A DNA stretch of 64,000 nucleotides from Verrucomicrobiaceae bacterium (GTDB lineage Bacteria > Verrucomicrobiota > Verrucomicrobiia > Verrucomicrobiales > Akkermansiaceae). The stretch spans positions 1 to 64,000 of the forward strand of contig JAIXOR010000058.1 of assembly GCA_027486655.1 (NCBI GenBank), given 5' to 3'. Under the pieces are notes generated by a model that was not told where the DNA came from, ran no database searches, and saw only the letters and a program-made list of their open reading frames with translations. A program made the translations under genes and the position numbers. Below, piece by piece: positions 7,326-28,904 of the stretch; positions within the stretch are counted from its first letter, which is position 1; every line of letters begins with the position of its first letter.

Positions 7326-7344
7326 ACGTCTCAAATCCAAAAAA
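7326..7344 (+). promoter_or_regulatory. putative operator, site A (core ACGTCTCAAATCC)
   Basis: It lies between the divergent regulator and symporter genes, about 40 bases from each start. The sense strand reads ACGTCTCAAATCCAAAAAA. The opposite strand contains TTTGA-N7-TCAAA, a partial dyad overlapping a TTGACA-like hexamer. Nearly the same sequence recurs upstream of the pseudopilin gene (28711-28731), with related copies at 27901-27922, 17261-17283 and 14542-14562. Assignment to the XylR-like regulator is inferred. Confidence 0.55.
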
Positions 7345-7387
7345 CCCCGACCCGCCAAGAAGTTTCCCCAAGGAACAGAATCCGGGC

Positions 7388-8992
7388 ATGCTTCCTCCCA
7401 GCAAACCCATGCCGACCATCAACCTTTCCTCCACCGACCTGATTGTGATGGTCGTTTATCTCGTCGGCATCGTTGCCTTCGGGTTGTATAAATCCGCACG
7501 CGGAGGAGCGGACGAATACTTCCTCGGCGGGCGCAACATGACGTGGCCGATCATCGGCCTCTCGATGATGGCGATGTGTGTTTCCAGTTCCTCGCTGGTG
7601 GGCTGGGCGGGCGATGCCTACAGCACCGGCATCGCGGTCTTCAATTATGGCATTGCTGGAGCGATCATTCCGATCCTCTTCTTCGTCGTTTTCTTCCTGC
7701 CGTTTTACCTGAGAAACAAGATCTTCACCCTTCCGGAGTTTCTGGAGGGCCGCTTCGATGCACGCAGCCGCTACTATCTTTCGTCGGTGACGATTCTCGG
7801 CTACACCTTTGCGGATGCCGCAGTCACGTTGTACGCGGGGGCTCTCATGGTCCAGCTGGTGTTTCCCGGTGCGAGCCTGGAGACGGTGATCTGGGGAATC
7901 GCCATCCTCGCCGCCTCCTACACGCTCATTGGCGGCCTCGCCTCGGTGATGTGGGTGGACATGATCCAGTCCGTCGTGCTGATCCTGGGCTCGGTGGTGC
8001 TCACCGTGATCGCCTTTGACAAGGCGGGCGGATGGGAGTCGGTGATGACTGCCGCACCGGCCGGGCATCTTCACCTGATCCGGCCGGTCAACGACCCGTC
8101 GGTGCCTTGGCCCACGCTCTTCATCAGCCTGCCGTTGTTGGGATTCTATTTCTGGGGCTTGAGCCAGGCGATGGTGCAGAGAACCTTGAGCGCGAAGAGC
8201 ATCGAGCATGGCCGCTGGGGCAATCTCTTTGCCGCCGCGCTTCATTTCTCGGTGTTTTTCGTGATGGTCCTCCCCGGGCTGGCCGGGCGCGTGCTGTTTC
8301 CGAACCTGGAATCCCCTAACAAGATCTACCCGACGATGGTGTTCGAACTTCTCCCTCCGGGCGTTACGGGGGTCGTGGTGATCGGTTTTGTCGCCGCGAT
8401 GGTCTCCACCCTGAGCTCGATCCTCAACTCGGCGCAGACCCTGGTGACCATGGATATCGTGGCCAAGCTGCGCCCCGGAATGAGCGGGGCATCCTTGGTC
8501 CGCACAGGAAACGTGGCTGGTCTGGTCATCGTCGTCGCCGCGGCCTTGTGGGCACCGCGCATTCATCAGTTTGATTCGGTGGTGAAGTATTTCCAACAGC
8601 TTCTCTCCTACATGGCTCCGCCGGTGGTCGCGGTGTTCCTCGCCGGGTTGTTCTGGCGCAGGGCCACGGGCACCGGAGCCTTCGCCGCGTTGATCTCAGG
8701 CTTGGGTCTGGCTGTAGGGCTGTTGGTCTTCCGGGATGCCACGCCCCTCGCCGCTTGGAATTTCCTGTATGTGGCCCCTCTGCTTTTTGTCGTCTGTCTC
8801 CTTGTCCTCGTTGCGGCCAGTTATGCATCGGCCGCGCCCTCCGAAGACGTGGTCTCAAGATATGTCTGGAACCCTGCTTTCTTCCGCAACGAAACACGCG
8901 CGCTGGTGGGCACTCCATGGTATCTCAACTACCGTGTCTTGAGCCTGCTGATCCTCGTCGTCACCTCCGTTTTCCTCTGGGTCTGGAAGTGA
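7388..8992 (+). CDS. sodium:solute symporter (SSS family), probably sugar uptake
   Basis: 534 residues from the chosen ATG, preceded by AAGGA 13 bases upstream; an ATG seven codons later has no ribosome-binding site. The protein has about 13-14 hydrophobic segments. It begins SSTDLIVMVVYLVGIVAFGL and carries SSS features such as EYFLGGRNMTWPIIGLSMMA and the FVAAMVSTLSSILNS helix typical of SglT-like members. Family members couple inward sodium to sugars, myo-inositol or organic acids. It heads an operon with a GH130 enzyme (28-base gap), a Tat-exported enzyme and a xylanase, so uptake of the released mono- or disaccharide is the likely role. Site A lies just upstream. Confidence 0.88.
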   Translation: MLPPSKPMPTINLSSTDLIVMVVYLVGIVAFGLYKSARGGADEYFLGGRNMTWPIIGLSMMAMCVSSSSLVGWAGDAYSTGIAVFNYGIAGAIIPILFFVVFFLPFYLRNKIFTLPEFLEGRFDARSRYYLSSVTILGYTFADAAVTLYAGALMVQLVFPGASLETVIWGIAILAASYTLIGGLASVMWVDMIQSVVLILGSVVLTVIAFDKAGGWESVMTAAPAGHLHLIRPVNDPSVPWPTLFISLPLLGFYFWGLSQAMVQRTLSAKSIEHGRWGNLFAAALHFSVFFVMVLPGLAGRVLFPNLESPNKIYPTMVFELLPPGVTGVVVIGFVAAMVSTLSSILNSAQTLVTMDIVAKLRPGMSGASLVRTGNVAGLVIVVAAALWAPRIHQFDSVVKYFQQLLSYMAPPVVAVFLAGLFWRRATGTGAFAALISGLGLAVGLLVFRDATPLAAWNFLYVAPLLFVVCLLVLVAASYASAAPSEDVVSRYVWNPAFFRNETRALVGTPWYLNYRVLSLLILVVTSVFLWVWK

Positions 8993-9020
8993 CCCGCCAA
9001 CCCGCCCTCATCCCACCTTC

Positions 9021-10052
9021 ATGAAACTCAGCAAACACTCCGCCAACCCCATCCTCCTCCCGCATCCGGATCATCCCTGGGAAAACCTTGTCGTATGCAA
9101 TCCGGGCGTGATCCATCATGACGGTGTGTTCCACATGCTGTACCGCGCCGCCGGGGATGATGAGGATCATGTGATCCACTTCGGCCTGGCCACGAGCAAG
9201 GATGGATTCCACTTCGAGCGAGCCGGGACACTGCCGGTGCTCTCGCCCAGCGAGGATGGCCCGGACGCGGGATGCATCGAGGATCCGCGGATCGTGCGTC
9301 TTGATGGCCGGTTTTACATCACTTATGCCTACCGGGCCTACAAACCGCGGCAGTACTGGCTCCAGGAAAACAACTCGGCCTACAGTCCGGAGGATCCTTC
9401 GCTGCCACCGCTGTTCGGCCGGAACATGACGGCGTCCGGTTTGCTGATGTCCGACGATCTCCGGCACTTCCGCCGCCTCGGCAGGATCACCCGATCCGAG
9501 GTGGACGATCGCGATGTGATCCTGTTTCCCGACAAGATCGGCGGACGCTACGTGATGCTGCACCGACCGATGCAGTGGACCGGGCCCCAGTATGGCACGG
9601 CGTATCCGGCGATGTGGATCTGCCATTCGGAGGATCTGCTCACCTGGTCCGAGAGCACCTTGCTGGCGAAGGGTGAGTTTTCATGGGAAAACAAGATCGG
9701 TGGCTCCTGCCCGCCGCTCGCCACACCGCATGGCTGGCTGGTGATCTATCATGCCGTCGATGCCGAGGGGACCTATCGGGTGGGCATCATGATGCTCGAT
9801 GCGGATGATCCCACCCAAGTCATCGCCCGCGTGCCGGAGCCCGTGATGGAGCCCGAGGAGGACTTTGAATGGAACGGCCTCTACCCTCACGGTGTGGTGT
9901 TCCCGACGGCCAATGTGGTGGTGGATGGCACCCTCTTTGTCTATTACGGTTGCGCGGACCAGACGATCGGAGTGGCCACCTGCGACTTCTCCGCCTTGGT
10001 GGATTTTGTCATGCAGTTCGATGCGGGAGGCCGGGTCCACGCGTTGGTGTGA
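9021..10052 (+). CDS. glycoside hydrolase family 130 phosphorylase/hydrolase
   Basis: 343 residues with no signal peptide, so cytoplasmic. The five-bladed propeller pattern of GH130 is recognisable: NPGVIHHDGVFHMLYRAAG, the catalytic-region motif EDPRIVRLDGRFYITYAYR with Asp88 as the expected general acid, RDVILFPDKIGGRYVMLHRP, and a C-terminal VYYGCADQTIGVAT. GH130 enzymes mostly phosphorolyse beta-1,4-, beta-1,2- or beta-1,3-mannosides; some hydrolyse mannosylated N-glycan fragments. The exact linkage cannot be read here. It is the second gene of the symporter operon, which would let it act on an imported disaccharide. Confidence 0.88.
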   Translation: MKLSKHSANPILLPHPDHPWENLVVCNPGVIHHDGVFHMLYRAAGDDEDHVIHFGLATSKDGFHFERAGTLPVLSPSEDGPDAGCIEDPRIVRLDGRFYITYAYRAYKPRQYWLQENNSAYSPEDPSLPPLFGRNMTASGLLMSDDLRHFRRLGRITRSEVDDRDVILFPDKIGGRYVMLHRPMQWTGPQYGTAYPAMWICHSEDLLTWSESTLLAKGEFSWENKIGGSCPPLATPHGWLVIYHAVDAEGTYRVGIMMLDADDPTQVIARVPEPVMEPEEDFEWNGLYPHGVVFPTANVVVDGTLFVYYGCADQTIGVATCDFSALVDFVMQFDAGGRVHALV

Positions 10053-10089
10053 CATTCCCAGACCGCCCTCAATCCACACCAGTACACGC

Positions 10090-11334
10090 ATGGATCGAAG
10101 ATCGTTTCTAACAACCGCCGGGGCGGCGATGATTCTCGCCCCCGGAAGGGGGGGCGCCGCCGCACCGGCGGGGCCCGCGCTCACTCCAGCCGATGAGATC
10201 CGTGCGCGTGTCCGCCGGGCAAGGCCTCTTCATGGCGGTCAGCTGCCTGCGGATCTCCGCGACAAACTCGGGCTCACGCATTATGACGGCCACTATCATC
10301 TCACCAACAAGCCATTTCTGATTGAAGGTGCGGAGGCGATTCACCGGCTTGGCATGAATGTGGCGAAGTTCTGGCTGCGAGAGGACGAGTTGCCCGGTTA
10401 CGCCTATAACAGCCGTCTCAAGGAGGTGCTCCATGGCGGGCGGCTCGTCGATGTGCTCAAGCACGAGGAATACCGCAAGGCTCTCGAACTGCCGTTCCGC
10501 ACGGTGATGCTGGAAGTGTTTCCGTTGGTGGGTAACAAGCAGTCGTTTTTCTCCGGCACCAACGATTTCAAGGATGAGGAAGACCAGTTTCACGAAGTGG
10601 CCTGTTATCTCCTGAAAACGTATCGGGATCGCGGCATCACCTTCATTCTCCAACACTGGGAGGGGGACTGGATGCTGCGCCGCGAGGAGGGCGGCACCTG
10701 GGGCCAGGTGCCCGCTGCGGAGGTGGACCGGCGCTGCGATGCCTTCATCCGCTGGTTGGCAGCCCGCCAACGGGGGGTCGAGCGTGCCCGCCGCGAGATC
10801 AAGGAAACGAAATGCCGCGTATTGCATGCCGCCGAGGTCAACCGCGTGTGGGATGGCATGGCGGGTCTGCCCACCCTCACCAACCGGGTGCTTCCGCATG
10901 TGGCCCTCGATCTGGTTTCCTGGTCGAGCTACGACGGCATGAAGGACGAGGTGGCCACCTGGCAGGGCATTGAAATCATCCGGCATTTCATGAGGCCCAG
11001 TCCGGTGAGCGGTGCCAGGACGGTGTATATCGGCGAGGTGGGAAAACCCGAGAAGGATGTCCCCGCGGCCGAGATCATTGATTGGTGGGATCGTGCCATG
11101 GGGGTGTTTCTTGCGATGGACATTCCCTATATCGTCCACTGGGAGTTGTATTGCAACGAACCCGCGGATGGCACCAAGGAAGACCGCCGGCCGCGCAAGG
11201 CGGAGGAGATGCGGGGGTTCTGGTACTTGCGCCCCGATGGGAGCCTGAGCCATGGAGGCGGCTACCTGGATACCTTGCTCAAGCATGCGGGTTCCAGCCT
11301 CCCCCAGGATGTGATCCGCAAACTGCGACCATGA
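10090..11334 (+). CDS. Tat-exported clan GH-A-like glycosidase candidate (paralogue 1)
   Basis: 414 residues from ATG 10090. The N-terminus MDRRSFLTTAGAAMILAPG is a twin-arginine signal. The body looks like a (beta/alpha)8 barrel with three spaced acidic positions typical of clan GH-A: FILQHWEGDW, a central AAEVNRV and YIGEVGKPEK near the expected nucleophile strand, plus aromatic strand ends (LVSWSSYD and IVHWELYCNEP). I cannot place it in a known GH family. It is followed by the xylanase gene with a 4-base ATGA overlap, so the two are translationally coupled, and it is clearly paralogous to the gene at 13220-14455. The role is inferred as extracytoplasmic glycan cleavage alongside the xylanase. 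Confidence 0.68.
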   Translation: MDRRSFLTTAGAAMILAPGRGGAAAPAGPALTPADEIRARVRRARPLHGGQLPADLRDKLGLTHYDGHYHLTNKPFLIEGAEAIHRLGMNVAKFWLREDELPGYAYNSRLKEVLHGGRLVDVLKHEEYRKALELPFRTVMLEVFPLVGNKQSFFSGTNDFKDEEDQFHEVACYLLKTYRDRGITFILQHWEGDWMLRREEGGTWGQVPAAEVDRRCDAFIRWLAARQRGVERARREIKETKCRVLHAAEVNRVWDGMAGLPTLTNRVLPHVALDLVSWSSYDGMKDEVATWQGIEIIRHFMRPSPVSGARTVYIGEVGKPEKDVPAAEIIDWWDRAMGVFLAMDIPYIVHWELYCNEPADGTKEDRRPRKAEEMRGFWYLRPDGSLSHGGGYLDTLLKHAGSSLPQDVIRKLRP

Positions 11335-13106
11335 AAGCGCTCGCGATCGTCTTTCTAACAGTCCTTCACGCTGCCTACGCCGCCACTCCCGCACCCGATG
11401 GGGGAAGTCCCGTGTTCAAGGTCTCGGCGATCGAGTCCTTCGCGTTGGACAGTCCAAGCCGGGACACGGCACGCGCGGAGCTGATGGACATCTCCTCCGG
11501 CCCGGTGATCCGCGCCTGGCGGATGGAAACGTTGCGCCAACCGGCGGAAACCTGGAAGTTCCAGCTTCGCGGGCGGTCGAGTGGCCCGGTGAAACGCGGT
11601 GACACTCTCTGGGCGCGTTTCTTTCTGCGTTCGTCCGCCAGCCGCAATGAAACAGGCGAGGGACACGCCACCTTCGTTTTCGAAAGCGCGGATGAACGCC
11701 ATGTGAAGTCGATCGATCTCACCTTCAGCGCAGGCAGCGAATGGCGTGAGTTTTGTTTTCCCTTCGAATGCCGCAGCGATCTTGCCGCGGGTGAGGCGCA
11801 GATCAGCATTCGCGCAGGCTTCCGCCCACAGGTGATCGAGGTTGGCGGGATCGAGGTTTTCAACTACGGCCCCTCCGTGCAGCCAGCGGATCTTCCGCGG
11901 ACGCAAGTGGACTATCCGGGCCGGGAGCTGGACGCCGCTTGGAGGATGGAGGCGGAGGCCCGCATCGAGAAGATCCGGAAAAACGACTTCACGCTTTGTG
12001 TCGTGGATGCAGCGGGAAAGCCCGCTCCGGGAGTGAAAATCGATGTCCGACTCCGGCGTCACGCATTCGGCTTCGGTTCTGCCGTGGATGGATCGGTTTT
12101 GTTAGGAAATGGGGCGGACTCGGAGCGGTACCGCGAGGTGATCGACCGTTCGTTTTCCCGCGTTGTGTTTGAGAACGAGCTCAAGTGGCAGTCATGGGAG
12201 TCTGCGTCCGATGGGCGGCGGGCGCTCAGCATGGAAGCCATCGAGTGGTTCCGGAAGCGCGGCATCGCCATGCGCGGCCACGTCCTCTTGTGGCCGAGTT
12301 GGCAGTACTTGCCGGAATCCATGCGCCGGCTTCGTGGCAACCCCGTGGAGCTGCGCCGCCTCGCCCTCGAAAGAGTGCACGGCATGGTCTCGCTCACCCG
12401 GGGACGCTTCCATGACTGGGATGTCGTCAATGAACCGTACGCTCATCATGATCTGATGGATGTGCTGGGAGGGGGTGCCATGGCGGATTGGTTTCAAGCG
12501 GCCCACGAGGCGGATCCCGAGGTGAGATTGTTTCTCAACGACTACGCTGGTCTGGCGGCCGGTGGGATGAACACGCGCCACAAGGACCACTTCGAGAAAA
12601 CCGTGCGCGATCTCCAAGAACGGTACGCGCCCATCCACGGCATCGGCCTGCAATGCCATTTCGGATGGTCTGTCACGCCGCCGGAAGCAGCGCTTGCCGA
12701 ACTCGACCGATGGGGAAAGCTCGGTCTTGAGGTTCAGTTGACCGAGTTTGACATCGACATCACCGACGAGGAACTCCAGGCCGATTACACGCGCGATCTT
12801 CTCACACTTGCCTTCAGCCATCCCTCGGTGACCGCCATCATGACCTGGGGATTTTGGGAAGGCCGTCACTGGAGGCCGGACGCGGCGCTGTGGAGAAAGG
12901 ATTGGTCGCTCAAACCCAACGGGAAGGTGTGGCTGGACCTCACCACCCGGCGCTGGTGGACTCAGGCTGCCGGAGTGACCGACGCGAAGGGCGGATTCCA
13001 TCTAAGGGGTTTTCCCGGCGATTACGAAGTGCGGATCGGCAGCGGCCCGAGCGAATCCGTTCGTCTGGATGCCAACCGCTCATCGATCACGTTCACCCGT
13101 CCGTGA
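11331..13106 (+). CDS. secreted GH10 endo-beta-1,4-xylanase
   Basis: 591 residues. The first 17 are a Sec signal peptide (MKALAIVFLTVLHAAYA). Residues 30-185 or so are a beta-sandwich, probably carbohydrate-binding (FQLRGRSSGPVKRGDTLWAR). Residues 215-530 are a GH10 barrel, with acid/base Glu368 in WDVVNEPY and nucleophile Glu472 in VQLTEFDIDI; HAFGFGSAV and ENELKWQSWE are further family signatures. A short tail resembles a beta-sandwich. GH10 enzymes cleave internal xylan linkages, some also mixed glucans. The start overlaps the preceding stop (ATGA) and closes the plus-strand operon, so extracellular cleavage would feed the symporter and GH130 enzyme. Confidence 0.93.
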   Translation: MKALAIVFLTVLHAAYAATPAPDGGSPVFKVSAIESFALDSPSRDTARAELMDISSGPVIRAWRMETLRQPAETWKFQLRGRSSGPVKRGDTLWARFFLRSSASRNETGEGHATFVFESADERHVKSIDLTFSAGSEWREFCFPFECRSDLAAGEAQISIRAGFRPQVIEVGGIEVFNYGPSVQPADLPRTQVDYPGRELDAAWRMEAEARIEKIRKNDFTLCVVDAAGKPAPGVKIDVRLRRHAFGFGSAVDGSVLLGNGADSERYREVIDRSFSRVVFENELKWQSWESASDGRRALSMEAIEWFRKRGIAMRGHVLLWPSWQYLPESMRRLRGNPVELRRLALERVHGMVSLTRGRFHDWDVVNEPYAHHDLMDVLGGGAMADWFQAAHEADPEVRLFLNDYAGLAAGGMNTRHKDHFEKTVRDLQERYAPIHGIGLQCHFGWSVTPPEAALAELDRWGKLGLEVQLTEFDIDITDEELQADYTRDLLTLAFSHPSVTAIMTWGFWEGRHWRPDAALWRKDWSLKPNGKVWLDLTTRRWWTQAAGVTDAKGGFHLRGFPGDYEVRIGSGPSESVRLDANRSSITFTRP

Positions 13107-13138
13107 AACGCTTGCCTTATACCGGCTTCATGTTTTGA

Positions 13139-13172
13139 GCGGCCTCCTGCTCGTCACGGAACACAAGGCCGC
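13139..13172. terminator. weak hairpin between convergent xylanase and Tat-protein genes
   Basis: GCGGCCT (13139-13145) pairs with AGGCCGC (13166-13172) across a 20-base loop in the 113-base gap between two convergent genes. There is no T tract on either side, so it is at best a weak or factor-dependent terminator. Confidence 0.25.
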
Positions 13173-13219
13173 CCGCATGGGCAATCAAGAGGTGGGGAGG
13201 GAACTGACGGGTTGGAGCT

Positions 13220-14455
13220 TCAGCGTCCGGGCAGCTTTGCGCCGGCGTGCTTGAGCAGGGAGTCGAGGTACCGCGCTCCCCAGCCGAGCGAGCCATCCGG
13301 GCGCACATACCAGAATCCCTTGAGCTCTTCCGCCTTGCGGACACGGCGATCGGACTTCGTGCCATCGAGCGGTTCGTTGCAATTGAGTTCCCAATGGACG
13401 ATCCATGGGACATCAAGCTCGAAGAACACCGCCATCGAACGATCCCAAAGGTCCACGACGCCGGCTTCCGACTTGCCCTTGAGGTTCTCTGGCTCGCCGA
13501 TCTCTCCGATGAAGACGCGTTTGCCTCCCAGGGCCGGGCTGGGCCGCATGTGGTGCCGCAGCATTTCGATGCCTTGCCACAACTTCACCGGATCATCGAT
13601 CGCGTCGTAACAGGACCATGAGACCAGATCGACGGCGACCTGCGGCAGCACCCGCGTCATCACGGTGGCGATGCCCTTGGTGGCGTCGATCACGCGGTTG
13701 ACCTCCGCACAATGCAGCACGCGGCAGGTTGCGGAGGGATGCTCGCGCCGCGCCCGTTCCACACCTCGCTGGCGCGCGGCGAGGAATGCGGCAAAGAGGC
13801 TGGCACGCCGTCCCACTTCCTTGTCCGGGGTTTGCTCCCAGGTGTTGCGGTCGTTGTGGCGGAACAACCAGTCGCCCTCCCAGTTCTGGAGGATGAAAGT
13901 GACGTCGCGTTTCTGATAGATGCTCAGCAGGTGGGAGGCGACGAGATGAAATTGTTCCTCCTCGTTGCGGTAATCGCTTTCGGTATCGAAGAAGTTGGTT
14001 TTGGAACCGGTGAGGGGGAAGATTTCCAGCAGAATGGTTGAGAATGGTTGTGCGAGGGCCTCCTGGAAGTAGCGATGCTTCAGCTTGTCCAAGAGGGTGC
14101 CGTCGAGCGGGATGCCCCAGTCGCTTTGATAGCGGTATCCGGGCAGATCGTCCTCGTGCAGCCAGAACTTGGCCACGCCCATGCCGAGTTCCTTCATTTT
14201 GCGTGCGCCTTCGACCAGGATGGGTTGGTCGGTGAAATGGTATCGTCCGTCGTAGTGTGTGGCTCCGAAACGCTTTGCGAAATCCGCAGGAATCGCTCCA
14301 CCGCGGGATGGACGTGCGGCGAGCACTCGGCGCTGGATTTCCGCAGCGGGCGTAAGCCGCAAGTTGTCCGCCACGGCGGTGGAGGCAAGGGATGAAGGCG
14401 TGAGGGAAGAGGCAAGACCCGCCCCGGTCCGGCGGATGAAATCGCGGCGTTTCAT
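13220..14455 (-). CDS. Tat-exported clan GH-A-like glycosidase candidate (paralogue 2)
   Basis: 411 residues. The start at 14455 gives a twin-arginine signal peptide (MKRRDFIRRTGAGLASS). It matches paralogue 1 (10090-11334) along its whole length: AEIQRRVLAARP, THYDGRYHFTDQPILVEGA, FILQNWEGDW, GFWYVRPDGSL. Candidate catalytic acids are Glu193 (NWEGDW), Glu251 (CAEVNRV) and Glu318 (FIGEIGEPE); the last fits the clan GH-A nucleophile position. The family is not recognised. It converges on the xylanase gene and is the last of the minus-strand series; the 259-base upstream gap carries the weakest copy of the shared operator-like sequence. Two copies flanking one xylanase suggest different specificity or regulation of one enzyme type. 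Confidence 0.68.
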   Translation of the reverse strand: MKRRDFIRRTGAGLASSLTPSSLASTAVADNLRLTPAAEIQRRVLAARPSRGGAIPADFAKRFGATHYDGRYHFTDQPILVEGARKMKELGMGVAKFWLHEDDLPGYRYQSDWGIPLDGTLLDKLKHRYFQEALAQPFSTILLEIFPLTGSKTNFFDTESDYRNEEEQFHLVASHLLSIYQKRDVTFILQNWEGDWLFRHNDRNTWEQTPDKEVGRRASLFAAFLAARQRGVERARREHPSATCRVLHCAEVNRVIDATKGIATVMTRVLPQVAVDLVSWSCYDAIDDPVKLWQGIEMLRHHMRPSPALGGKRVFIGEIGEPENLKGKSEAGVVDLWDRSMAVFFELDVPWIVHWELNCNEPLDGTKSDRRVRKAEELKGFWYVRPDGSLGWGARYLDSLLKHAGAKLPGR

Positions 14456-14541
14456 GAAGGTGTGGGCAATGGGTTGGACAACTGGAATAGCCTTAGATTC
14501 GCCCGATCTCTCCCTGCGGGAAAAGCGCGGGCGGCTGACGA

Positions 14542-14562
14542 CGCATTTCCGATTCGTGACAT
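14542..14562 (-). promoter_or_regulatory. putative operator, site E (weakest copy)
   Basis: The minus strand reads TGTCACGAATCGGAAAT, about 90 bases upstream of the paralogue 2 start. It keeps GTC.C.AATC..AA of the better sites at 7326, 28711, 27901 and 17261, with the same orientation relative to the downstream gene. The match is imperfect. Confidence 0.3.
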
Positions 14563-14649
14563 CATCGCCCCAAGGGCAGCCATGCCCCTGGATCATGGAT
14601 TGAAAATCGGAACATGAGCGAATTGGCCGGTCTGGATGCGGGGGCGGTT

Positions 14650-14676
14650 CGGCTCCCAGGCCTCGCGCCGGAGCCG
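14650..14676 (-). terminator. possible terminator hairpin after PEP-CTERM gene
   Basis: CGGCTCC (14650-14656) and GGAGCCG (14670-14676) form a perfect 7-bp stem with a 13-base loop, just past the stop codon of the minus-strand gene at 14715. No T tract follows, so efficiency is doubtful. Confidence 0.35.
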
Positions 14677-17260: not shown

Positions 17261-17283
17261 GGGATATTCTCGTTTTGGGACAA
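17261..17283 (-). promoter_or_regulatory. putative operator, site D
   Basis: The minus strand reads TTGTCCCAAAACGAGAATAT, between the lyase stop (17293) and the PEP-CTERM gene start (17192). It keeps GTCYCAAA and the A/T-rich 3' flank of sites A-C in the same orientation, which suggests this gene has its own promoter. Confidence 0.42.
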
Positions 17284-17292
17284 GCTGGCCGC

Positions 17293-20200: not shown

Positions 20201-23200
20201 CCTTCCGTGGTAGGGCCGATGCCGCCGAGGATCCACTCGCTGAGGATGAACGGATGGGAGAGATCCTGATGGGACTGGACCGACATGCCGGGCAGGTTAC
20301 GACCTTCGAAGAAACGCAGCACTGCATCCGGGCCCGACACCGGAACCCGGTCATCGGACCATTGGGAAGGCTGGCTCCAGGCAGGCATGTCATCGCTCTG
20401 GGAGGCGATCCACCCGTTTCCCCATCCGTTGTTCGTGATCTGGAGAGTGACGGTGGTGGAGGCGCTGAGCGATCCGTCGCTGACGGTGAGGACGATGGGC
20501 ACGGATCCGAACGCCCATGCAGGAATCTCCACGTTGAGGAACCTGGAGGTGGTCGAACCGCTGATGGTGACGGCCGTGTCCGGAATGAGATGTGGAAGAC
20601 CGCTGTTAGAGCTGACGATCAGATTGCCGGCCGGGGTTTCGGCATCGCCCACGGTAAGGGCGAGCGGCACGGAGATCTGTCCTGCGCTGCCTTGCCATAA
20701 GGAAGGCGCGCTGATGGATGGAGGGGTGTTTGGAAGGGCCAGATTGATGGCGATGCTTGCCTCGGAGATGAAGGTGCCGTCATCGACGCGGGCGACCGCG
20801 GTGTGCAGGGCCTGGGTGCTGTAGGTTCTCGGAGTTGGAGAAGCCTGGGGGCTCCAGGGTGTGGGTGCGGTGCCGTCTCCCCAGAGAACCGAATGCCGGA
20901 GCCTATCCGATGCATCCGGATCGGTGGCGGAGGTGGTGAGCGTGACAGGTTGGCCGGGCACGGGGGGATCCGGCTGGAGGGAGATGCCTTGGATCACCGG
21001 GGGGCTGCCGGGAGAGGAGGCGAGCCCTGCGATTTCCGCGGCACTGAGGGCCCGTTTGTCGATGCGGACTTCGTCGAAGTTGCCTTGGAGATTCTGGGTG
21101 AATGAGCCGCCGCCCATGGAGCCGAGGAAGAGCGGCATGTTGTCCGGAAGATCCGGGCGAATGGCACCCGATGCGATTTCCGCACCGTTCACATAGAGTC
21201 GCGCGGTGGCAGCCGTGCGCTGGATCACGGCGGCGATGTGGACCCATTCGCCGAAGGGCACCGCGTTGGTGGGCGAGGCGATCGCGGAGGAAAGCGTGCC
21301 ATTGCCGGTATTGAGATGAAGCTTCCGATCGGTGGTGGTCCACGAGTTGGCATAGAGGTGGATGCCGGTGCCGGTGGTGGCTCCCATCGGGCGGGAGAAA
21401 AGCAGCGTCTGCATGCTGGAGCGACCGGACTGGATGCGGACCCAGCCTGAAAACGTGAATGCATCCCCGAGGGCGAGCGCGCCGAGGTTCACCGCGTCGT
21501 CATTGCCATCCACCACGAGCGATTGCAGGCCGCCACGCGTGGTGGAGGAGGAGAGGGAGGCACCCAGCATCAAGGTGGGTATGGGCGCTGCTCCGGTGAC
21601 ATCGCGTGCATCGTTCTGGAAGGTCCAGCGGTGGGCGGGCCCGGGTGCGGCGAGGAGGCGGATCTCGGAAGCGGGCAAGGCGCGAGGGAGATGGCGCACG
21701 TCGTCAAGACTGCCGGAGAAAGGGAAGGCCCCGCCTCCCGGAGCCATGCGTCCGAGATACAACGTGCCGTCCGGTGTGAAGTCCGTGCGCGTCGAGGATT
21801 GCAGCGTGACAAGCACGCCGTTCACAAAAAGCCGGGTGTGGCTGTTGGTCCGGTCGATCACAGCGGCGACATGCGTCCATGTTCCGGCGGGAATCGCACC
21901 TGGGGCGGTGGAGGCTTTGGATTGCTGGCTGCCGTTTGCGGTTTCAAACACGAGGGCACCATCCGAGGTGTTGTAGTTGTTCACGTAGAACTTGAAGCCA
22001 TTGGCCGCGCCCGATGCCGTGTTGGCCGCGATGGTCTGGATGTTGGCCGCGCCGGGAGTCGTCCGGATCCATGCGGCGAGCGTGATGCGGTCGCCGAAGT
22101 CCAGTGGAATCACGGTGCGCAGTTCGTCATCCACGCCATCGAAGAGCGCCGCGCCGCTTCCTTCCGCGGCACCGCTGATCCATTGCGGGGCTGAGGTGCC
22201 GGCGACCAGTGCGGTGCCGCCGTGGGCGTTGTCGAGTGTGCCATTGAGCGGCCACGAACAGGCGACCGAGGCCTGAGCCTCTAACAACCCAAGCTGGATG
22301 AGGGCGGCGCTTTCCGAAAGACCCGTAAGCTGGGGCAGCGGAGTGGCCTTGACCCGGACGTCGATGGAGGTGCCCGAAGTGGTGAAACGAAGTGCGAGTT
22401 TCCTCAGGTTCGTCCGTTGCCAGGTGGCATTGTCGTAGCCCCAGAGCAAGGTGTCCGACGGTCTCGAGGATGGCAGGTTTTCATCGATGCGTCCGTATCT
22501 GAAGCCCCCGTTGGAAAACGCATCCGAGGAGAGAATTTCCAGATTGAGATACACCGGCATCGAATCGCGGACGGCCTGGAGCACCACGCGGTTTTCGGAT
22601 AGATAAACCGGTTTGTGCGAGGTGCCGGGAAGATGCCAGTACCAGAACACCTCGTTGTCCGCCTGGGCGAAATGAAGGGAATCGCGGATTTCCAGCGCAC
22701 CGGTGCCGCGATCCCAGTTGAAGGAGCGGACGGGATCCGCGGGAGCCCCCTGAGCCGCGGTGCGGATGCCATGACGGGCGTATGCGGTGGAGAGGTTGAT
22801 GCGGGCCGTCCAGGTGGAGGCGGCGGCGGAGGTGTTTAGATTTTCCAACGGGGCCCAGTGCGAACTGAGTCCATCGTCCATCGCCTGATCCGGCTGCACC
22901 GCGTCCAGCCAGGCCTTGGGCACGGCGCGGGCGAGGTAGTCGTTGCGAGTGGGGTTCACCACCAGCGTGTTTTGTCCCATGGCCCGCTTGGGATAAGTCT
23001 GATAGGAAGTCGATCCGCTGTCCGGCGATGGAGGACGATAGGAAGGATATCCCACGGGCGGACCGAGATCCGCGTTCCAGCGCACGCCCAGCGAGTCGAA
23101 TAGGAAGTCACCGGTATCGAGGTGCTCGTGGCGGTCCGCGCGTTTGTCTCCGCCTTTGAGGAACACGGCGGTGGAGTTGGTGTCCGTCCAGCTTTGCCGC

Positions 23201-24612
23201 CAGATGGCGATGTGTTCGTTTGATCCCGATCTCGCGGTGGGCGAGGCCTCGATGCGGGCGCTGTGAAAGTAGCGGGCGAGCGGGATCGTGGTGGGATCGA
23301 AACCGGACATGCCCCGGTTGTTAGAAATGGATTGTTGCCAGTCGAACAAGGCATGCCACAGCAGGTGCAGGCCACTCCAGGTGGTGGGCGAACGGTCTCG
23401 TGCCCTCCACGCCGCCGCCCGCCATGCGGAAGACGGATCGGACTGGCGGGCAAAGTCCGCCAGTCGGTAGCAGGCGGCCTGATCGGTATAACTCCAGTTG
23501 CCGTCATTGTGGGTGAACTCCCGGCGTGAAGGGCCGGCGAAGTGGATGCCCATCTGGATCATCGATACCGAAGCCTGGCGCGTGAGCGTGGCGAAGTCGG
23601 TGAGATAGGATGCGGGCAGGTTGGTGGTTTCGCGGCGCGCGGATTCGAGGGAGACGGCGGTGCCGAGCAGTGGATAGATGAAATCATGAGAGTATCCAGG
23701 GCCCTCATCCCACATGCCACCCATGTCCTGTGAGGAGCGCCATGCGGTGGAAAGAAGCGAGAGGACGGCGGGAAGGTAGGCGTCGAAGTGCTCGCGGAAA
23801 CTGCGTGTGACGCGGCTGCCGGCATTGGAAGTGCCCGGCCAGCATGAGAAGGAGCCGTCGTAGTCCTGCTGGCGGATGGCGAGCGAGCCCATGATGCCGC
23901 CGCCGAGGATGATGGTGGACCAGTTGTTGATGCTGGTGTTTTTCGCCCACCATTTGCGGTCGCTCTGGTTCATCGGGGCGAGCATTCCGTTGAACGAGGG
24001 GATGATGCCGTAGAGGATGATGGCGGACGCGATCGATTGTCTTTGGGCGGGGGTGAACTCGTCGTAAAGAAAATCGTAAATGACGGCCAGCGGCTGGATG
24101 TTGGAGCCTTGGCCGACGTGGATGCTGGTGCTGGTGCTGCCAACTCTTTGGAGGGCGTCCACCAGATCCATCTCCACCTGGACGAGTTCGTCGCGGAGCA
24201 GGTTGAGGGTCGTGGAGGATGGGGATCCGGTGCTTGCGTGAACGCCGCGGGCGATGCGGTGGAGCATGGCGGCCTCGGTGAGGATGGAGCGCGCGTCGAA
24301 TCCAAAGCTGGGATTGGCGGAACGATAGCGCGCTTGCAGCGTGTCGATATCGGTGAGGGCCTTGGAGATGGAGGTGTCCAGGCGGGAGCGGTGGGTACTG
24401 TCTCCAGAGGTGAGCGTGGAAACGGCGCGCTGGATTTCCTCCGGAGAGGCCATCAGGCGCGGGGTGGAGGGGGCGTCGGCAAAGCGGAAGGTGTCCGCAA
24501 GCATTTGGGTGGTGGACTGCGATCGGACGCTCCCGGTGCAGAAAGCCAGGACCGCGGCACCGAGGGCGGTGGCGCGGAGTATGAGGCCGGAACGGACGGG
24601 GAGGAAGGACAT
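17293..24612 (-). CDS. giant modular heparinase II/III-like polysaccharide lyase
   Basis: 2439 residues from ATG 24612, which gives a signal peptide (LRATALGAAVLAFCTGSVRS). Visible modules: an alpha/alpha toroid (about 30-440) with SINNWSTIILGGG and WDEGPGYSHDFIYP; a heparinase II/III-type beta domain with DRHEHLDTGDFLFDSLG near 500; two LamG/concanavalin-like domains (about 820-990 and 995-1190); Ig/PKD-like domains (about 1205-1400); some 900 residues of autotransporter-associated beta-strand repeats; and a verrucomicrobial C-terminal domain (DPDADGIPNGIEFLLGSDP). Heparinase II/III-like lyases cleave uronic-acid polysaccharides by beta-elimination; the substrate here is unknown. I first considered PL8, but the HxHxD-type motif fits heparinase II/III better. 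It lies 71 bases downstream of a related exoprotein gene, with a strong hairpin between. Confidence 0.78.
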   Translation of the reverse strand: MSFLPVRSGLILRATALGAAVLAFCTGSVRSQSTTQMLADTFRFADAPSTPRLMASPEEIQRAVSTLTSGDSTHRSRLDTSISKALTDIDTLQARYRSANPSFGFDARSILTEAAMLHRIARGVHASTGSPSSTTLNLLRDELVQVEMDLVDALQRVGSTSTSIHVGQGSNIQPLAVIYDFLYDEFTPAQRQSIASAIILYGIIPSFNGMLAPMNQSDRKWWAKNTSINNWSTIILGGGIMGSLAIRQQDYDGSFSCWPGTSNAGSRVTRSFREHFDAYLPAVLSLLSTAWRSSQDMGGMWDEGPGYSHDFIYPLLGTAVSLESARRETTNLPASYLTDFATLTRQASVSMIQMGIHFAGPSRREFTHNDGNWSYTDQAACYRLADFARQSDPSSAWRAAAWRARDRSPTTWSGLHLLWHALFDWQQSISNNRGMSGFDPTTIPLARYFHSARIEASPTARSGSNEHIAIWRQSWTDTNSTAVFLKGGDKRADRHEHLDTGDFLFDSLGVRWNADLGPPVGYPSYRPPSPDSGSTSYQTYPKRAMGQNTLVVNPTRNDYLARAVPKAWLDAVQPDQAMDDGLSSHWAPLENLNTSAAASTWTARINLSTAYARHGIRTAAQGAPADPVRSFNWDRGTGALEIRDSLHFAQADNEVFWYWHLPGTSHKPVYLSENRVVLQAVRDSMPVYLNLEILSSDAFSNGGFRYGRIDENLPSSRPSDTLLWGYDNATWQRTNLRKLALRFTTSGTSIDVRVKATPLPQLTGLSESAALIQLGLLEAQASVACSWPLNGTLDNAHGGTALVAGTSAPQWISGAAEGSGAALFDGVDDELRTVIPLDFGDRITLAAWIRTTPGAANIQTIAANTASGAANGFKFYVNNYNTSDGALVFETANGSQQSKASTAPGAIPAGTWTHVAAVIDRTNSHTRLFVNGVLVTLQSSTRTDFTPDGTLYLGRMAPGGGAFPFSGSLDDVRHLPRALPASEIRLLAAPGPAHRWTFQNDARDVTGAAPIPTLMLGASLSSSTTRGGLQSLVVDGNDDAVNLGALALGDAFTFSGWVRIQSGRSSMQTLLFSRPMGATTGTGIHLYANSWTTTDRKLHLNTGNGTLSSAIASPTNAVPFGEWVHIAAVIQRTAATARLYVNGAEIASGAIRPDLPDNMPLFLGSMGGGSFTQNLQGNFDEVRIDKRALSAAEIAGLASSPGSPPVIQGISLQPDPPVPGQPVTLTTSATDPDASDRLRHSVLWGDGTAPTPWSPQASPTPRTYSTQALHTAVARVDDGTFISEASIAINLALPNTPPSISAPSLWQGSAGQISVPLALTVGDAETPAGNLIVSSNSGLPHLIPDTAVTISGSTTSRFLNVEIPAWAFGSVPIVLTVSDGSLSASTTVTLQITNNGWGNGWIASQSDDMPAWSQPSQWSDDRVPVSGPDAVLRFFEGRNLPGMSVQSHQDLSHPFILSEWILGGIGPTTEGGTFTLTGSPLRLVAPPSGGPARVRLDATSGAGFSYVIGVPVELAADTEFSGNGDASFIFAGPLSGGGTLTKSGSSALGIGGVTPHTLTGPWRLAAGSLVFEPGLDHRIPTNSTVNFTGSASWDLGGNQQSITGLDLVNATHQSALQATICDGSLLLLAPSAITLGPTTSNIGPVSANSCLLDLSTLESFVFQSTSDLSIQPKTYNTQSASSTLRLGDAASLTAKRLHIGGMAGGGAHSGTLELGLSNVIRADEIAIGRSARTSGILRHRSGITGNATTLLRASNGTSRISKLQLGEQWGGSGDNTATADFTGGSVDALVDLLEIGRATANSRPSTATLTLGPDGGVLDANQITLGTAEATASGAIQATIQQQGGIIRTPALVFGSTSGQNAPTLSCLYQMQPGSTLECASITAGAAGRAAAASERTLRFHGGLLTTHPSSSTLRIAGKPQNGTLILDVAASATLLVPHDRTTVIEPTARLAGSGTLRKTGPGRLISHSAGSTFSGSMEILAGSLEITSDAAAGAPPASVMPEALTIDGGTLVLNRGWQGEFGLVSAGSGHTTFPTLDLTGVSGESIQTHGGIATLSILQQGNSNHTAATISFTAPDLPGGIQATATGILTGGKLTSVTLTHPGSGYTVPPRATITLTGGSQVSVPPVLGLTVAVQGALVLNPGHDAEGSAPAVSLIGGGGSGTVFSATAGTTVPISLHHRRGLRIGAGGANLGCVGNHEITGPVSGPGSLTKTLPGTLSVTGSRSYTGDTRVHAGVLRFTSASLADKAMVSIQSGASLRLDFSGTDEIAGLVLEGVSMPPGIYQESNSNGRILGSGQLRVPGSAFQSWIEAAFPGITATATTGFQADPDADGIPNGIEFLLGSDPTRSTGTSWLPSLSTEAGTLRFIFRRSAAARSLAFQIEAATDPSGPWLPLAHGLDGTSIREETDALAQGVDRVTVTLPQASHAARFLRLAASQP

Positions 24613-24627
24613 GGGGCGGATACGGAA

Positions 24628-24662
24628 CTCCCGGCGGTCCGCAAGTTGCGGTCCGCCGGGAG
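24628..24662 (-). terminator. strong hairpin between exoprotein and lyase genes
   Basis: CTCCCGGCGG (24628-24637) pairs perfectly with CCGCCGGGAG (24653-24662), and the inner CCGC/GCGG extends the stem after one mismatch. It fills the 71-base gap between two co-directional minus-strand genes and ends about 16 bases before the lyase ATG. Without a T tract it may act as a partial terminator, a 3'-end stabiliser or a structure affecting lyase translation. Confidence 0.5.
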
Positions 24663-24683
24663 TGTGGCATGAAGCTGCGGCGA

Positions 24684-27600
24684 TCAGTTCTTCAGCACGC
24701 GGAGTCGTGCGAATTTCCGCTCGGGCGATCCGGGAGTGAAGGTAAACGAGATGGTGGCGGAGGGATTGCCCGCGGCCTGGGTCACCTCGGGAGTCCATGA
24801 CCCGGAAGCCAGTGTGGATGAGGTTTCAATAGCCCATGAGACATCTCCGTTGGTGATCGCGTCACCGCCTTTGGTGAAGGTGACGGTGTTTCCCGAAAAG
24901 ACACCGGCAGGGAGGTCGTGGGTGGTGGGGGACTTGCCGAGGCCGTATTCGACGCCGTTGGAGATTCCGTCTTTATCGAAGTCTCCGGTGAAGGGCTCGC
25001 CCGTGATGCCATTGGTGGTGGCCCATGCATCGTATCCGGCCCCACCGGGGATGGTGAGGGTCACTGCCTTGCCGCCGTAGGCGGGATCGTTGTAATCGAG
25101 CACAAAACTGTTCGTAACAGCTCCCTTTGTGACGTTGACCGTCGCTCCATCCGCGAGGCCGGCGAAGGTGCCGGTGAGCGAGCCGTCCTGATAGTCGATC
25201 AGCACAAGCTTGGTTCCGGGGTTGAGGAGAGCCGGAGTGGCGGCGTCGTCGGCGATGTTGAAGGCCGGCAGGGCGGACAGGTCGATGTCACCGTCCACTT
25301 GCAGGGCACCGCTGGTGGAGCTGGCCGAGTTCATGCGGGCGGAGTAAGTGGCGGAGGCGGCAAGACTCACCTTTTGTCCGGCGGTGGAATCCACGATGGT
25401 GGTGGTGACGCCGGAAACCACTATGGACACACCGCTGAGCGTGAGGTCCGATCCGGTGGCATTGGTGAGAATGCCGCCTCTGAGGATCAGGTTGCGCTGG
25501 GTGTTGCCCGCGGTGATCGGCGTGGCAAGCAGGCCGGGTTTCACCTGTTTGGCAGCGAGGGTGCCGCCGTTGAGATTGTAGTTGGCCTGAAGATTCTGGG
25601 TTGCCGAGGCCACGTTGGGAGAGGCGTTGTCCGCGGTTTCAACCATGACGAGGTTGTCCACGGTCACGGTGCCGCCGCCTTGGGTGAAGTTGGCGACGGT
25701 GAGCGGCGATCCCGCTCCGACCTTGCGCGCAAGGGTCAGGTTGGTGGCTGTCACGGTGCCGTCGGGTATGGTCACCGAGCTGGTGGTGGACGGGCTGGTG
25801 GAGTTGGCGATGTGCCTTCCGATGATCACGTCCGTGGCGGCGATGTCCGCGGAGCCGTTGGTGAGATCCAGCGTTCCCGCACCGCTGCGCACGCCTGAGG
25901 AGGTTTCGCCCACCAGCAGGGTGGTGGCGGGTGAGGTGCCATCTGCTCCCCGGATCTTGAGGACGGGAGTGGTGAGGCCGCTCTGATAGGTGATCACGCC
26001 GGAGCCGTTGAAGCCGCCGACCTGGAAGGTGGGTGTGCGGAACTCGTTGGTGGTGCCGAGACGCAGCTGCCCCTGATGGGCGTTGCCCTGGCTGGTGCCG
26101 GAGGCACCGCCGATCTGGACGAGGCTGGCGGTGACCGTGTTGGTGCCGCTGGAGAGGACGAGTTCGTGGGTCGTTGTGTCGGTGGCGGCGGTGGCGGGAA
26201 GGCAGCGGAAGGCGCGGTTGCTGCGGTTGTAGGTGAATGAGGAAAGACCGCTCATGACGAGCCGCGTGTTTTGGGCTCCGTTCACATCGAAGTTGAAATC
26301 TCCGTTCACCGTGAGTGAGCCGCTGCTTCCTGTTAGAGTCGTTGTGCCGCCTCCAAAGGGAAGCACCCGGCCGAAGGTGGCGGTGGTGGAGGGAAGGGCC
26401 AGAGTGGTGCCGCCCGCCGTGGCGGTGAAGCTGTAGGTGGCGGGCAGGTTGAGCGTGCCGTTGGTGACTGTGGTGGTGCCGCCATTGATGTGCGTCAGCG
26501 CAGAGGCGTCCGTGGTGGTGGTGCCGAGATCGAGGGTGGCGCCGGACTTCAGGAAAACCAGGGCCACGCCGGAGGCCGGAGTGCTGCCGGACGCCAGCGA
26601 GAGCGTGCCGTCATAAAGCGCGATGCGGGTGAATCCGGGGCTGCCGGAAAGCGTGAGCTTGCCCGCGCCGACCTTGGTGAACTGGGCCGCACCGGCCGCC
26701 ACGAGGTCATCGGCAAGGGTGGTGTCCCCGGTGTTTCCCGTGGTGTCGATGCCGAAGGATCCCGTGCCGGAGAAGGTGGTCGAGGCGATCAGGTTGGTGA
26801 TCGCCGTGGCGGACCAGGGAGACGCATCGCCAAATCTCGCGGCAAGCGTGCCTCCGGCATTGGACACATAACTCTGAGTGAAGCCATCGGAGCCCGAGTC
26901 ATAGCCGGGAAGTGCCTGCGGCTTGGTGAGGGACAAAACGCCGCCGTTTACCGTGGTGGTGCCGGTCCAGCTGTTGGTTCCGGACAGGGTGAGGATGCCG
27001 GCATCGGTCTTGGTGATTCCGCTGGGGTCGGTTTCGGTAATGTCGCCCTCGATGTTGAGATTCACCTGCGCCGGGTTTGCCCCGATTTGCTGGGCACCGC
27101 CGAATCCGCCGCTGAGGGTGATCGAGCGGGAGGCGGAAAGGGTGATGGTGCCGCTGTTCGCGCCGGGCTCGGCAAAGAGTCGTGCGCCGCCCACGATTTC
27201 GATGTCGTTTGCGGAGTTTCCGAGGGTCGAGTTCTTTTCGATGCCCAGCGTGCCTGCGGAAATCTTGATGGGACCGGTGTAGGTGTGGTCGATCGAATTG
27301 AAACGAAACGTGAAACGTCCGGCCCCGGTTTTCTCAAATCCCTGGGTGCCGAAGAGCGCGCTGTAGAAGAAGGCATCCCCGGCGCCGATCTGAATCTGGG
27401 GCTGACCGGAACTGGTCTGGAGGGTGAGGCCCTTGGTGGCGTCCATGCTGGTGGGGGACGTCGGGAAAGTGGCGGCCTGCGCGCCGGCGAGCGGCAGCGT
27501 GTTGGTTGTGCGGGTGAGCTTGCCGATCGTGTAGTTGCCATCGATCAGGATATCGAGCGCGCCGGTGGCGGGCAGGGTGGAGGACGGGCCGGTGCCGTTG

Positions 27601-27770
27601 CAAATGGCTTCCGCCCCGATGGCGTTGGGCACGGTGTTGGGGGTCCAGTTGGTGGAGAGACCCCAGGTGCTGCCGTCGCCTGTCGAGTTGTTATAAGTCG
27701 ATTGTGCGTTTCCCTGCGGTGCGGCTGCGAGCGGGAGTGCGATGAAGAGCGGGATGAATCTGGGTTTCAT
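24684..27770 (-). CDS. secreted beta-strand-repeat protein with verrucomicrobial C-terminal domain
   Basis: 1028 residues. The start at 27770 gives a signal peptide (MKPRFIPLFIALPLAAAPQGNA). The passenger is made of autotransporter-associated beta-strand repeats (TGAGRFTFRFNSIDHTYTG, LTKPQALPG, TDVIIGRHIANS, NFTQGGGTVTVDNLVMVE), closely parallel to the protein at 14715-17192. The last 120 or so residues carry DFDKDGISNGVEYGLGKSP and end FARLRVLKN, the module that also ends the lyase; there is neither a PEP-CTERM tail nor a barrel. Such proteins are taken to be extracellular, but the export and anchoring mechanism is not established here. Site C lies about 140 bases upstream. It probably leads a transcript reaching the lyase gene. 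Confidence 0.8.
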   Translation of the reverse strand: MKPRFIPLFIALPLAAAPQGNAQSTYNNSTGDGSTWGLSTNWTPNTVPNAIGAEAICNGTGPSSTLPATGALDILIDGNYTIGKLTRTTNTLPLAGAQAATFPTSPTSMDATKGLTLQTSSGQPQIQIGAGDAFFYSALFGTQGFEKTGAGRFTFRFNSIDHTYTGPIKISAGTLGIEKNSTLGNSANDIEIVGGARLFAEPGANSGTITLSASRSITLSGGFGGAQQIGANPAQVNLNIEGDITETDPSGITKTDAGILTLSGTNSWTGTTTVNGGVLSLTKPQALPGYDSGSDGFTQSYVSNAGGTLAARFGDASPWSATAITNLIASTTFSGTGSFGIDTTGNTGDTTLADDLVAAGAAQFTKVGAGKLTLSGSPGFTRIALYDGTLSLASGSTPASGVALVFLKSGATLDLGTTTTDASALTHINGGTTTVTNGTLNLPATYSFTATAGGTTLALPSTTATFGRVLPFGGGTTTLTGSSGSLTVNGDFNFDVNGAQNTRLVMSGLSSFTYNRSNRAFRCLPATAATDTTTHELVLSSGTNTVTASLVQIGGASGTSQGNAHQGQLRLGTTNEFRTPTFQVGGFNGSGVITYQSGLTTPVLKIRGADGTSPATTLLVGETSSGVRSGAGTLDLTNGSADIAATDVIIGRHIANSTSPSTTSSVTIPDGTVTATNLTLARKVGAGSPLTVANFTQGGGTVTVDNLVMVETADNASPNVASATQNLQANYNLNGGTLAAKQVKPGLLATPITAGNTQRNLILRGGILTNATGSDLTLSGVSIVVSGVTTTIVDSTAGQKVSLAASATYSARMNSASSTSGALQVDGDIDLSALPAFNIADDAATPALLNPGTKLVLIDYQDGSLTGTFAGLADGATVNVTKGAVTNSFVLDYNDPAYGGKAVTLTIPGGAGYDAWATTNGITGEPFTGDFDKDGISNGVEYGLGKSPTTHDLPAGVFSGNTVTFTKGGDAITNGDVSWAIETSSTLASGSWTPEVTQAAGNPSATISFTFTPGSPERKFARLRVLKN

Positions 27771-27900
27771 GGGAATGGGTTGTGCGGTTGCTGTGATGGA
27801 ATGCGGATGTGAAAACGGGATGTACACCGGAAACGTCGCGGAATGGGTTCCGTGGCAGGGTCCGGCGCACCTGCCTCCGGCTCAATCGATGACCGAGGTC

Positions 27901-27922
27901 CGGAAATTGTTGATTTGGGACG
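27901..27922 (-). promoter_or_regulatory. putative operator, site C
   Basis: The minus strand reads CGTCCCAAATCAACAATTT in the 163-base gap between the pseudopilin stop (27934) and the exoprotein start (27770). It shares CGTCYCAAATC and the A-rich flank with sites A and B. A small inverted repeat (GGCAGG 27854-27859, CCTGCC 27870-27875) sits between it and the downstream gene. Confidence 0.48.
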
Positions 27923-27933
27923 ACGTGGCGGGC

Positions 27934-28599
27934 TCAAAGCTGGCTGAGATTCACCGGTCTGACGGAGAAATCCCAGAACATGGCCATGCTCTGCTTGCCA
28001 TGCGCCGGTGCGGACGCGCCGCCGTTCGACCAACCGCCGACGCCGAGCGTGGTGTTCTGCTCGGTGATCATCCGCACCAGTCCCGCGCTTCGCGGGCTGA
28101 TCTGGTCGATGCGTTTGGGCACGCTGCCGGGTGCATAGCCCCAGGGGTAGCTGATGTCATTCGGGGGCACCGCATTGTCGAGGAGCTTGTTCTGGCGGTC
28201 TTCCAGCCGATAGACGACGGGGGGCTTCTCGACGGTGTTTTCCTTGATCTGCTTCATCAGCGACGGGCAGCCGTAGTTGGCGATGAGATAGGGCTCGGAG
28301 TTGTTGTCCCGCGGGTCTTCAAGGTAGGGCCCGATGTAGGTCACGAGGCTGCGCGAGTCCTTGTTGTAGAGAGCGGATTGCCCGGTGTTGAGCGGACCCG
28401 GGAGCCGGCCGTTCTTCTCGGAGAGATACATCTGCAGGGCATTGCCGATACCGCGCAGATTCGACACGCAGACGGCCTTCTGGGCGTTGTTGATCATGCG
28501 CGAGGACACCCCGAGGACCAGGACGGCAAGGACGATGAGGATGGTGATGGTGACCAAGACCTCGGTCAGGGTGAAGCCGCGGGCGGATGTGGGTTTCAT
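27934..28599 (-). CDS. type II secretion pseudopilin-like protein (prepilin N-terminus)
   Basis: 221 residues. The N-terminus MKPTSARG/FTLTEVLVTITILIVLAVLVLG is a class III prepilin signal: peptidase cleavage after Gly8, Phe at mature +1, Glu at +5 and one hydrophobic helix. Helix residues SNLRGIGNALQMYLSE and the tail WDFSVRPVNLSQL are typical of the DUF1559/H-X9-DG-like pseudopilins abundant in Verrucomicrobiota and Planctomycetota. The start at 28599 is set by this signal. No other secretion genes are nearby, so it is a stand-alone member. It heads the minus-strand exoprotein series and has a near-perfect copy of the operator-like sequence about 115 bases upstream. Confidence 0.85.
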   Translation of the reverse strand: MKPTSARGFTLTEVLVTITILIVLAVLVLGVSSRMINNAQKAVCVSNLRGIGNALQMYLSEKNGRLPGPLNTGQSALYNKDSRSLVTYIGPYLEDPRDNNSEPYLIANYGCPSLMKQIKENTVEKPPVVYRLEDRQNKLLDNAVPPNDISYPWGYAPGSVPKRIDQISPRSAGLVRMITEQNTTLGVGGWSNGGASAPAHGKQSMAMFWDFSVRPVNLSQL

Positions 28600-28904
28600 G
28601 GAGAATGGGTTGGTGGTTTCGGCAAATGGTCCGGAGCAGGTTTCCTGCACAGGGCTTGACCCTGAATTCTTCGCACGTGGAACCGGTGGACAAGAAGCGG
28701 GACTAGCCCTGATTTTTCGGATTTGAGACGTCGTGAGGACGTTGGCAGACTTCGATGAAACCCGGTTTGGTGACGACCGTCCGCCTGCCGAGCTGGATCC
28801 GATGAGCCCGTTCATCGTTCACGCGATCGCGTAATCGTCTGATGGATGGATATGAATTATAACCCGACCTTCAACGGATCTTAAGCATCGAACTGGATCG
28901 AGTC
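28600..28904. other. 305-base divergent intergenic region
   Basis: It separates the pseudopilin and kinase-like genes, which diverge. It holds operator-like site B (28711-28731) and, nearer the kinase gene, an AT-rich stretch with a TATAAC hexamer (28858-28863) that could be a -10 element, without a convincing -35. The palindrome GCGATCGC occurs at 28823-28830. I see no RNA gene and no further ORF. Confidence 0.5.
28711..28731 (-). promoter_or_regulatory. putative operator, site B
   Basis: The minus strand reads ACGTCTCAAATCCGAAAAAT, identical to site A (7326-7344) except for one base in the A-run. It lies about 115 bases upstream of the pseudopilin start, with the same orientation relative to that gene as site A has to the symporter gene. 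This is the best evidence that the two loci are co-regulated. Confidence 0.55.

Follow-up and report, generated by a model that had tools for sequence, protein, structure and literature searches.

A conserved motif points to a sugar regulon of an XylR-like protein that may include a pseudopilin and giant exoproteins in an Akkermansiaceae bacterium

In the polysaccharide utilization loci of Bacteroidetes, a local sugar-sensing regulator coordinates a transporter, glycosidases and surface proteins. The locus described here is similar in that it combines a sugar regulator, a transporter, glycosidases and surface proteins, but a SusC/SusD-type pair is not among the genes examined, and the surface components are PATR/LamG exoproteins and a pseudopilin. 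Its regulator resembles E. coli XylR (4fe4/4fe7), which likewise joins an AraC-type domain to a LacI-type sensor and is encoded beside sugar-use genes, whereas the target genes and the site sequence differ, and the apparent control here extends to extracellular giant proteins and a pseudopilin. The nearest precedent found for the latter is Verruconatronum alginivorum (Verrucomicrobiota), where one of the few genes with raised expression on alginate, besides the alginate clusters, encodes a pseudopilin (PMC13274419). A pseudopilin is in both cases tied to polysaccharide-degradation genes in Verrucomicrobiota, but the regulator named for V. alginivorum is of the KdgR/GntR type and the polysaccharide is a different one, and the text describing it does not mention XylR, AraC or an operator (PMC13274419). 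No XylR operator for Verrucomicrobia was described in the literature searched. The present locus appears to belong to a known kind of local sugar regulon, with the unusual reach that a pseudopilin and giant PATR exoproteins would be placed under a sugar sensor.

The window, i.e. the whole stretch of DNA analysed (64 kb), contains the features collected in Table 1. The XylR-like protein consists of 404 residues, with an N-terminal periplasmic-binding-protein-like sensor (Peripla_BP_3, 1.4e-27) and a C-terminal AraC-type double helix-turn-helix (HTH_18, 9.1e-20; HTH_AraC, 3.5e-7; both Pfam), and it matches E. coli XylR over residues 46-383 (phmmer, E 5e-35). None of the 25 NCBIfam models listed reached its cut-off, leaving the protein without a named subfamily. 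The symporter, GH130, GH-A1 and GH10 genes are closely consecutive and are therefore taken as one operon. GH-A2 gave no Pfam, NCBIfam or PDB sequence match; its structure model is moderate (pLDDT 69) and matches only TIM-barrel folds. GH-A1 is probably also a TIM barrel, by analogy with this paralogue, and the two Tat-type proteins are candidates for an unclassified family of glycoside hydrolases. Together, the mannoside phosphorylase, the xylanase and the heparinase-like lyase suggest a fibre from plants or algae, mixed or acidic in composition, rather than a single named sugar.

Table 1. Genes, candidate promoter and motif sites in the window, in order of position.
Feature	Coordinates	Strand	Sequence	Remarks
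XylR-like regulator (xylR)	6073..7287	-		LacI-type sensor (Peripla_BP_3) and AraC-type DNA-binding domain (HTH_18); Pfam
Possible xylR promoter	7298..7326	-		TTGTCA 7321-7326, 17-base spacer, TAGCGT 7298-7303; by eye
Site 1	7322..7346	+	GACAACGTCTCAAATCCAAAAAACC	xylR/symporter gap; conserved in G020 and G073
Sodium:solute symporter (SSF)	7409..8992	+		Pfam 1.8e-67; alternative start 7388
GH130-type mannoside phosphorylase	9021..10052	+		Pfam 3.8e-43
GH-A1	10090..11334	+		Tat-type secreted; 57% identical to GH-A2; no Pfam match
GH10 xylanase	11331..13106	+		Pfam 1.7e-45
GH-A2	13220..14455	-		GH-A1 paralogue; weak TIM-barrel/GH5-like fold matches
Site 5	14542..14566	-	GATGATGTCACGAATCGGAAATGCG	Before GH-A2; other-species matrix rank 3 in window
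PATR2 exoprotein	14715..17192	-		PATR 3e-7; autotrns_rpt; PEP-CTERM-like C terminus, from sequence
Site 4	17263..17287	-	CAGCTTGTCCCAAAACGAGAATATC	Before PATR2; other-species matrix rank 4, held-out test
Giant exoprotein (lyase)	17293..24612	-		Heparinase II/III-like lyase region (PDB matches 8khv, 8khw, 9o3q), LamG domains (Laminin_G_3 5.7e-47), PATR repeat
PATR1 exoprotein	24684..27770	-		PATR 2.2e-13; orthologue in G073
Site 3	27903..27927	-	CACGTCGTCCCAAATCAACAATTTC	Before PATR1; held-out tests
GspG-like pseudopilin	27934..28599	-		N_methyl; GspG model below cut-off; orthologue only in G073
Site 2	28711..28735	-	CACGACGTCTCAAATCCGAAAAATC	Before pseudopilin; conserved before G073 orthologue

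An earlier note had described five copies of a motif, and all were recovered at the positions reported, 7326-7344 (+), 28711-28731 (-), 27901-27922 (-), 17261-17283 (-) and 14542-14562 (-). The near-identity claimed for the first two holds, with ACGTCTCAAATCC exact in both and an A-run in addition; the A-run at 7339-7344 doubles as the right arm of an inverted repeat, GGGGTTTT...AAAACCCC, found in this genome only, and this part of the likeness consequently weighs less. When starts are set to signal-peptide or Tat methionines (28599, 27770, 17192, 14455 and 7409), all five copies lie between genes, and each is directed at its downstream gene as had been stated, the one for 7326 being the symporter, with xylR divergent. 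Of the 73 genus genomes compared, only G020 (79%) and G073 (66%; the Akkermansiaceae MAG Prado247) carry a close XylR orthologue besides the present one. They bring the sites to nine, since the five in the window are joined by three in G073 and one in G020, a third species. The consensus is about CRACGTCNCAAATCCRAAAAAWY. Without exception, the nine share a GTC, a C at the second base after it, an A within the run that follows and another A further on. The motif block, ~20-25 bp in length, contains two conserved boxes spaced by about one turn of the helix. There is one 25-bp block per promoter, and no clear second direct-repeat half-site was recognised in the flanks, which counts against an XylR-type operator. 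The window is without any match in Rfam.

The bare repeat proves little: the 13-mer within two mismatches occurs three times in the 64-kb window against 1.4 expected, which is not significant on its own. The extended pattern GATTTGRGACGWCGTG was also rejected, being exact at two sites only and giving about as many looser matches as a reversed-pattern control. The motif is nevertheless real and far beyond chance, by held-out matrices and by the two relatives. Both G020 and G073 keep the divergent xylR/symporter pair, and the best 20-base window shared by all three gaps is the motif, 29-31 bases from xylR (46/60 pairwise identities versus a maximum of 41 in 500 dinucleotide shuffles); the remainder of the gap has diverged among the three genomes. 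In a scan of 1.26 Mb from the own genome with a matrix built from these three gap sites, only 7322, itself a training site, outscored 28711; the latter reached 26.4 bits and the position ranked next 17.3. With this matrix, the strictest of those used, the expectations of the held-out sites in their own gaps, computed against intergenic background, were <0.001 (28711), 0.01 (27903), 0.018 (17263) and 0.055 (14542), falling to ≤0.003 for the last three as other sites were added, and each of the four is the top match on either strand of its gap. These held-out values are somewhat favourable, because the 25-base frame was set by eye from the copies in the earlier note. The cross-species matrix results do not hang on this frame alone: a matrix from G020 and G073 only ranked 7322 (+), 28711 (-), 14542 (-) and 17263 (-) as first to fourth in the 64 kb, and none of 5000 column-permuted versions of this matrix reached the observed sum over the gaps. 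Site 27903, scoring 4.2 bits with the other-species matrix, fails this test, and its assignment rests on its likeness to 28711. Leave-one-out analysis with all nine sites left 0-2 equally good background positions per site, background rates being taken from stretches of the own genome (a 1.2-Mb sample). Gene-level ranks from crude whole-sample gene calling were not used as evidence, since the pseudopilin and PATR1 frames were mis-called.

Repeated 13-mers are expected in 64 kb, and sites 27903 and 28711 precede neighbouring genes, as they might if the likeness were due to chance or left over from a local duplication of upstream DNA. Such an origin is contradicted by the G073 sites, by the cross-species conservation and held-out tests as a whole, and by the lack of alignable identity outside the 25-bp block (mean information 0.43 bits in the flanks versus 1.15 within), and we regard it as improbable in the extreme.

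The tie between the sugar genes and the exoprotein cluster can be followed in G073. Only one of the 72 other genus genomes, G073, has an orthologue of the pseudopilin (51%), and it is also a carrier of a close XylR orthologue; if the pseudopilin were distributed at random over 73 genomes, the chance that the two with it would both have xylR, as three genomes do, is ~0.001, ignoring relatedness. The pseudopilin was not found in G020, a genome that is 59% complete. G073 keeps the order pseudopilin-PATR-PATR, with orthologues of PATR1 (55%) and PATR2 (47%) following the pseudopilin. Its pseudopilin is preceded by a LamG giant gene that is partly like the lyase-LamG protein of the window, and the gap upstream of the pseudopilin holds GAGCACGTCACAAAAACGAAAAAAC. 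This site scored 21.9 with a matrix trained on the five sites of the window, a level reached by 0 of 2.4 million background positions, and a second site before the LamG giant gene scored 14.3, with 13 background positions as good. No clear site was seen in the pseudopilin/PATR1 gap or upstream of PATR2 in G073, and xylR and the exoprotein cluster are on different contigs there; both observations weigh against the regulon. A difference in gene arrangement fits the regulon: in G020, GH-A2 lies directly behind GH10 without an operator, where a site of its own would not be needed, and in the window the gene is turned round and preceded by site 5.

The earlier note had raised the possibility that the motif is equally frequent upstream of unrelated genes, and the proposed link survives this check. 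A model built on the seven sites then known returned only those sites from the whole genome at E ≤ 10, the search tool applying a first-look filter. The nine known sites score 25-36 bits, versus 18.4 bits for the best match elsewhere in the 1.2-Mb sample. The core GTCYCAAATCNRNAAW occurs exactly three times in the 5.33-Mb genome, all within the window, and nine times with one mismatch, 17266 included; several of the other one-mismatch sites lie inside long open frames, for example in a MurJ-like gene (open-frame contexts were inspected roughly). These frequencies bear on a reading of the motif as a promoter element, such as an alternative sigma-factor box of extracytoplasmic or exoprotein genes, which would account for the single orientation of all nine sites and their position about 50-130 bases 5' of the next start codon. 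We consider it very unlikely, since there are no further genomic copies at E ≤ 10 despite dozens of PATR giants, the distances to the starts vary by more than 80 bases, and a second conserved box at fixed spacing was not recognised.

Given the conservation of the motif in the xylR/symporter gap of both other carrier genomes and before the orthologous pseudopilin of one of them, the adjacent XylR-like protein, already named as the simplest candidate binder, is the best candidate on sequence grounds. The genome contains at least 18 XylR-like matches, and proximity of an operator to xylR is not binding; one of these paralogues or a different factor could instead use the motif to control the xylR/symporter pair and the exoprotein cluster. 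Against another regulator, the recognition-helix regions (SRRRLHDAF and RLV.VF) are identical in the three orthologues and different in the paralogues, the paralogue promoters and neighbourhoods examined held no site that comes close to the nine, and the motif was found at such a level only in genomes with an orthologue of this xylR. This last argument is in part circular, as the model had been trained on those sites. Control by another factor is, on balance, unlikely. The edge of site 1 overlaps the -35 box of the possible xylR promoter, with a similar layout in G020 and G073 (read by eye), which suggests that xylR may regulate itself; a promoter and terminator consensus scan of 6000-7600 found no promoter.

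Our preferred reading, to which we assign a probability of roughly 0.78, is that the 25-bp motif is the operator through which the XylR-like regulator controls both the symporter operon and the exoprotein side of the locus (pseudopilin, PATR proteins, lyase and GH-A2). One AraC-type subunit is expected to cover a block of 20-25 bp containing two boxes about one turn apart, and a single subunit could contact the two-box site with both of its helix-turn-helices. The regulator would bind its own promoter region and four exoprotein-side promoters, and its ligand would be an oligosaccharide set free from a fibre such as xylan, mannan or a relative of these. In response it would switch on the four genes of the symporter operon (symporter, GH130, GH-A1, GH10), and with them GH-A2, the PATR exoproteins, the lyase downstream of PATR1 and the pseudopilin. 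Going by the example of E. coli XylR, it more probably acts as an activator than as a repressor. Of the regulon that had been proposed, the exoprotein link is confirmed by the motif before the orthologous pseudopilin of G073, GH130, GH-A1 and GH10 belong to it by operon assignment, and the lyase by its position behind PATR1. A gap of 71 bases separates PATR1 from the start of the lyase gene, and the two are assumed to be co-transcribed despite the strong hairpin between them. Since the motif lies beside a sugar regulator and before pilin-like and giant-protein genes, and is kept in a relative, the plant-fibre enzymes and the giant surface proteins of this bacterium are probably switched on together.

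Verrucomicrobiota genomes can hold many giant PATR-repeat exoproteins and lone pseudopilins, mostly without known roles. Here, the conserved putative operator ties such a cluster to a transporter-xylanase-mannoside phosphorylase operon, and so gives it a testable job, polysaccharide capture, and offers a route to a testable inducer. More speculatively, and with the odds somewhat against it, the pseudopilin, the PATR/PEP-CTERM exoproteins and the LamG/lyase giant might form the surface half of an Akkermansiaceae polysaccharide-foraging machine, a sugar-induced, pilus- or matrix-like and fibre-binding scaffold that works with the symporter and glycosidases and replaces the SusC/SusD-type complex of Bacteroidetes. 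The 25-bp operator can be used for scanning other genomes.

Several further features of the window and its genome were recorded. The hairpin between PATR1 and the lyase gene, CTCCCGGCGGACCGCAACTTGCGGACCGCCGGGAG (24613-24683, minus strand; z -4.15), is possibly a terminator, an attenuator or an mRNA-processing element of the exoprotein operon. A protein-kinase-like gene (28905-29852, plus strand; PF00069, 4.6e-23) runs divergently from the pseudopilin gene, and the gap with site 28711 is common to both; in G073, the LamG giant gene takes its place as the upstream neighbour of the pseudopilin. The PATR repeat has at least 150 matches in the own genome, spread over many giant open frames, so that exoproteins of this type are very abundant in it. 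Further along the window, at 30518-32557 (plus strand), an OHCU decarboxylase beside a urate oxidase with a cytochrome c domain makes up a purine-breakdown pair.
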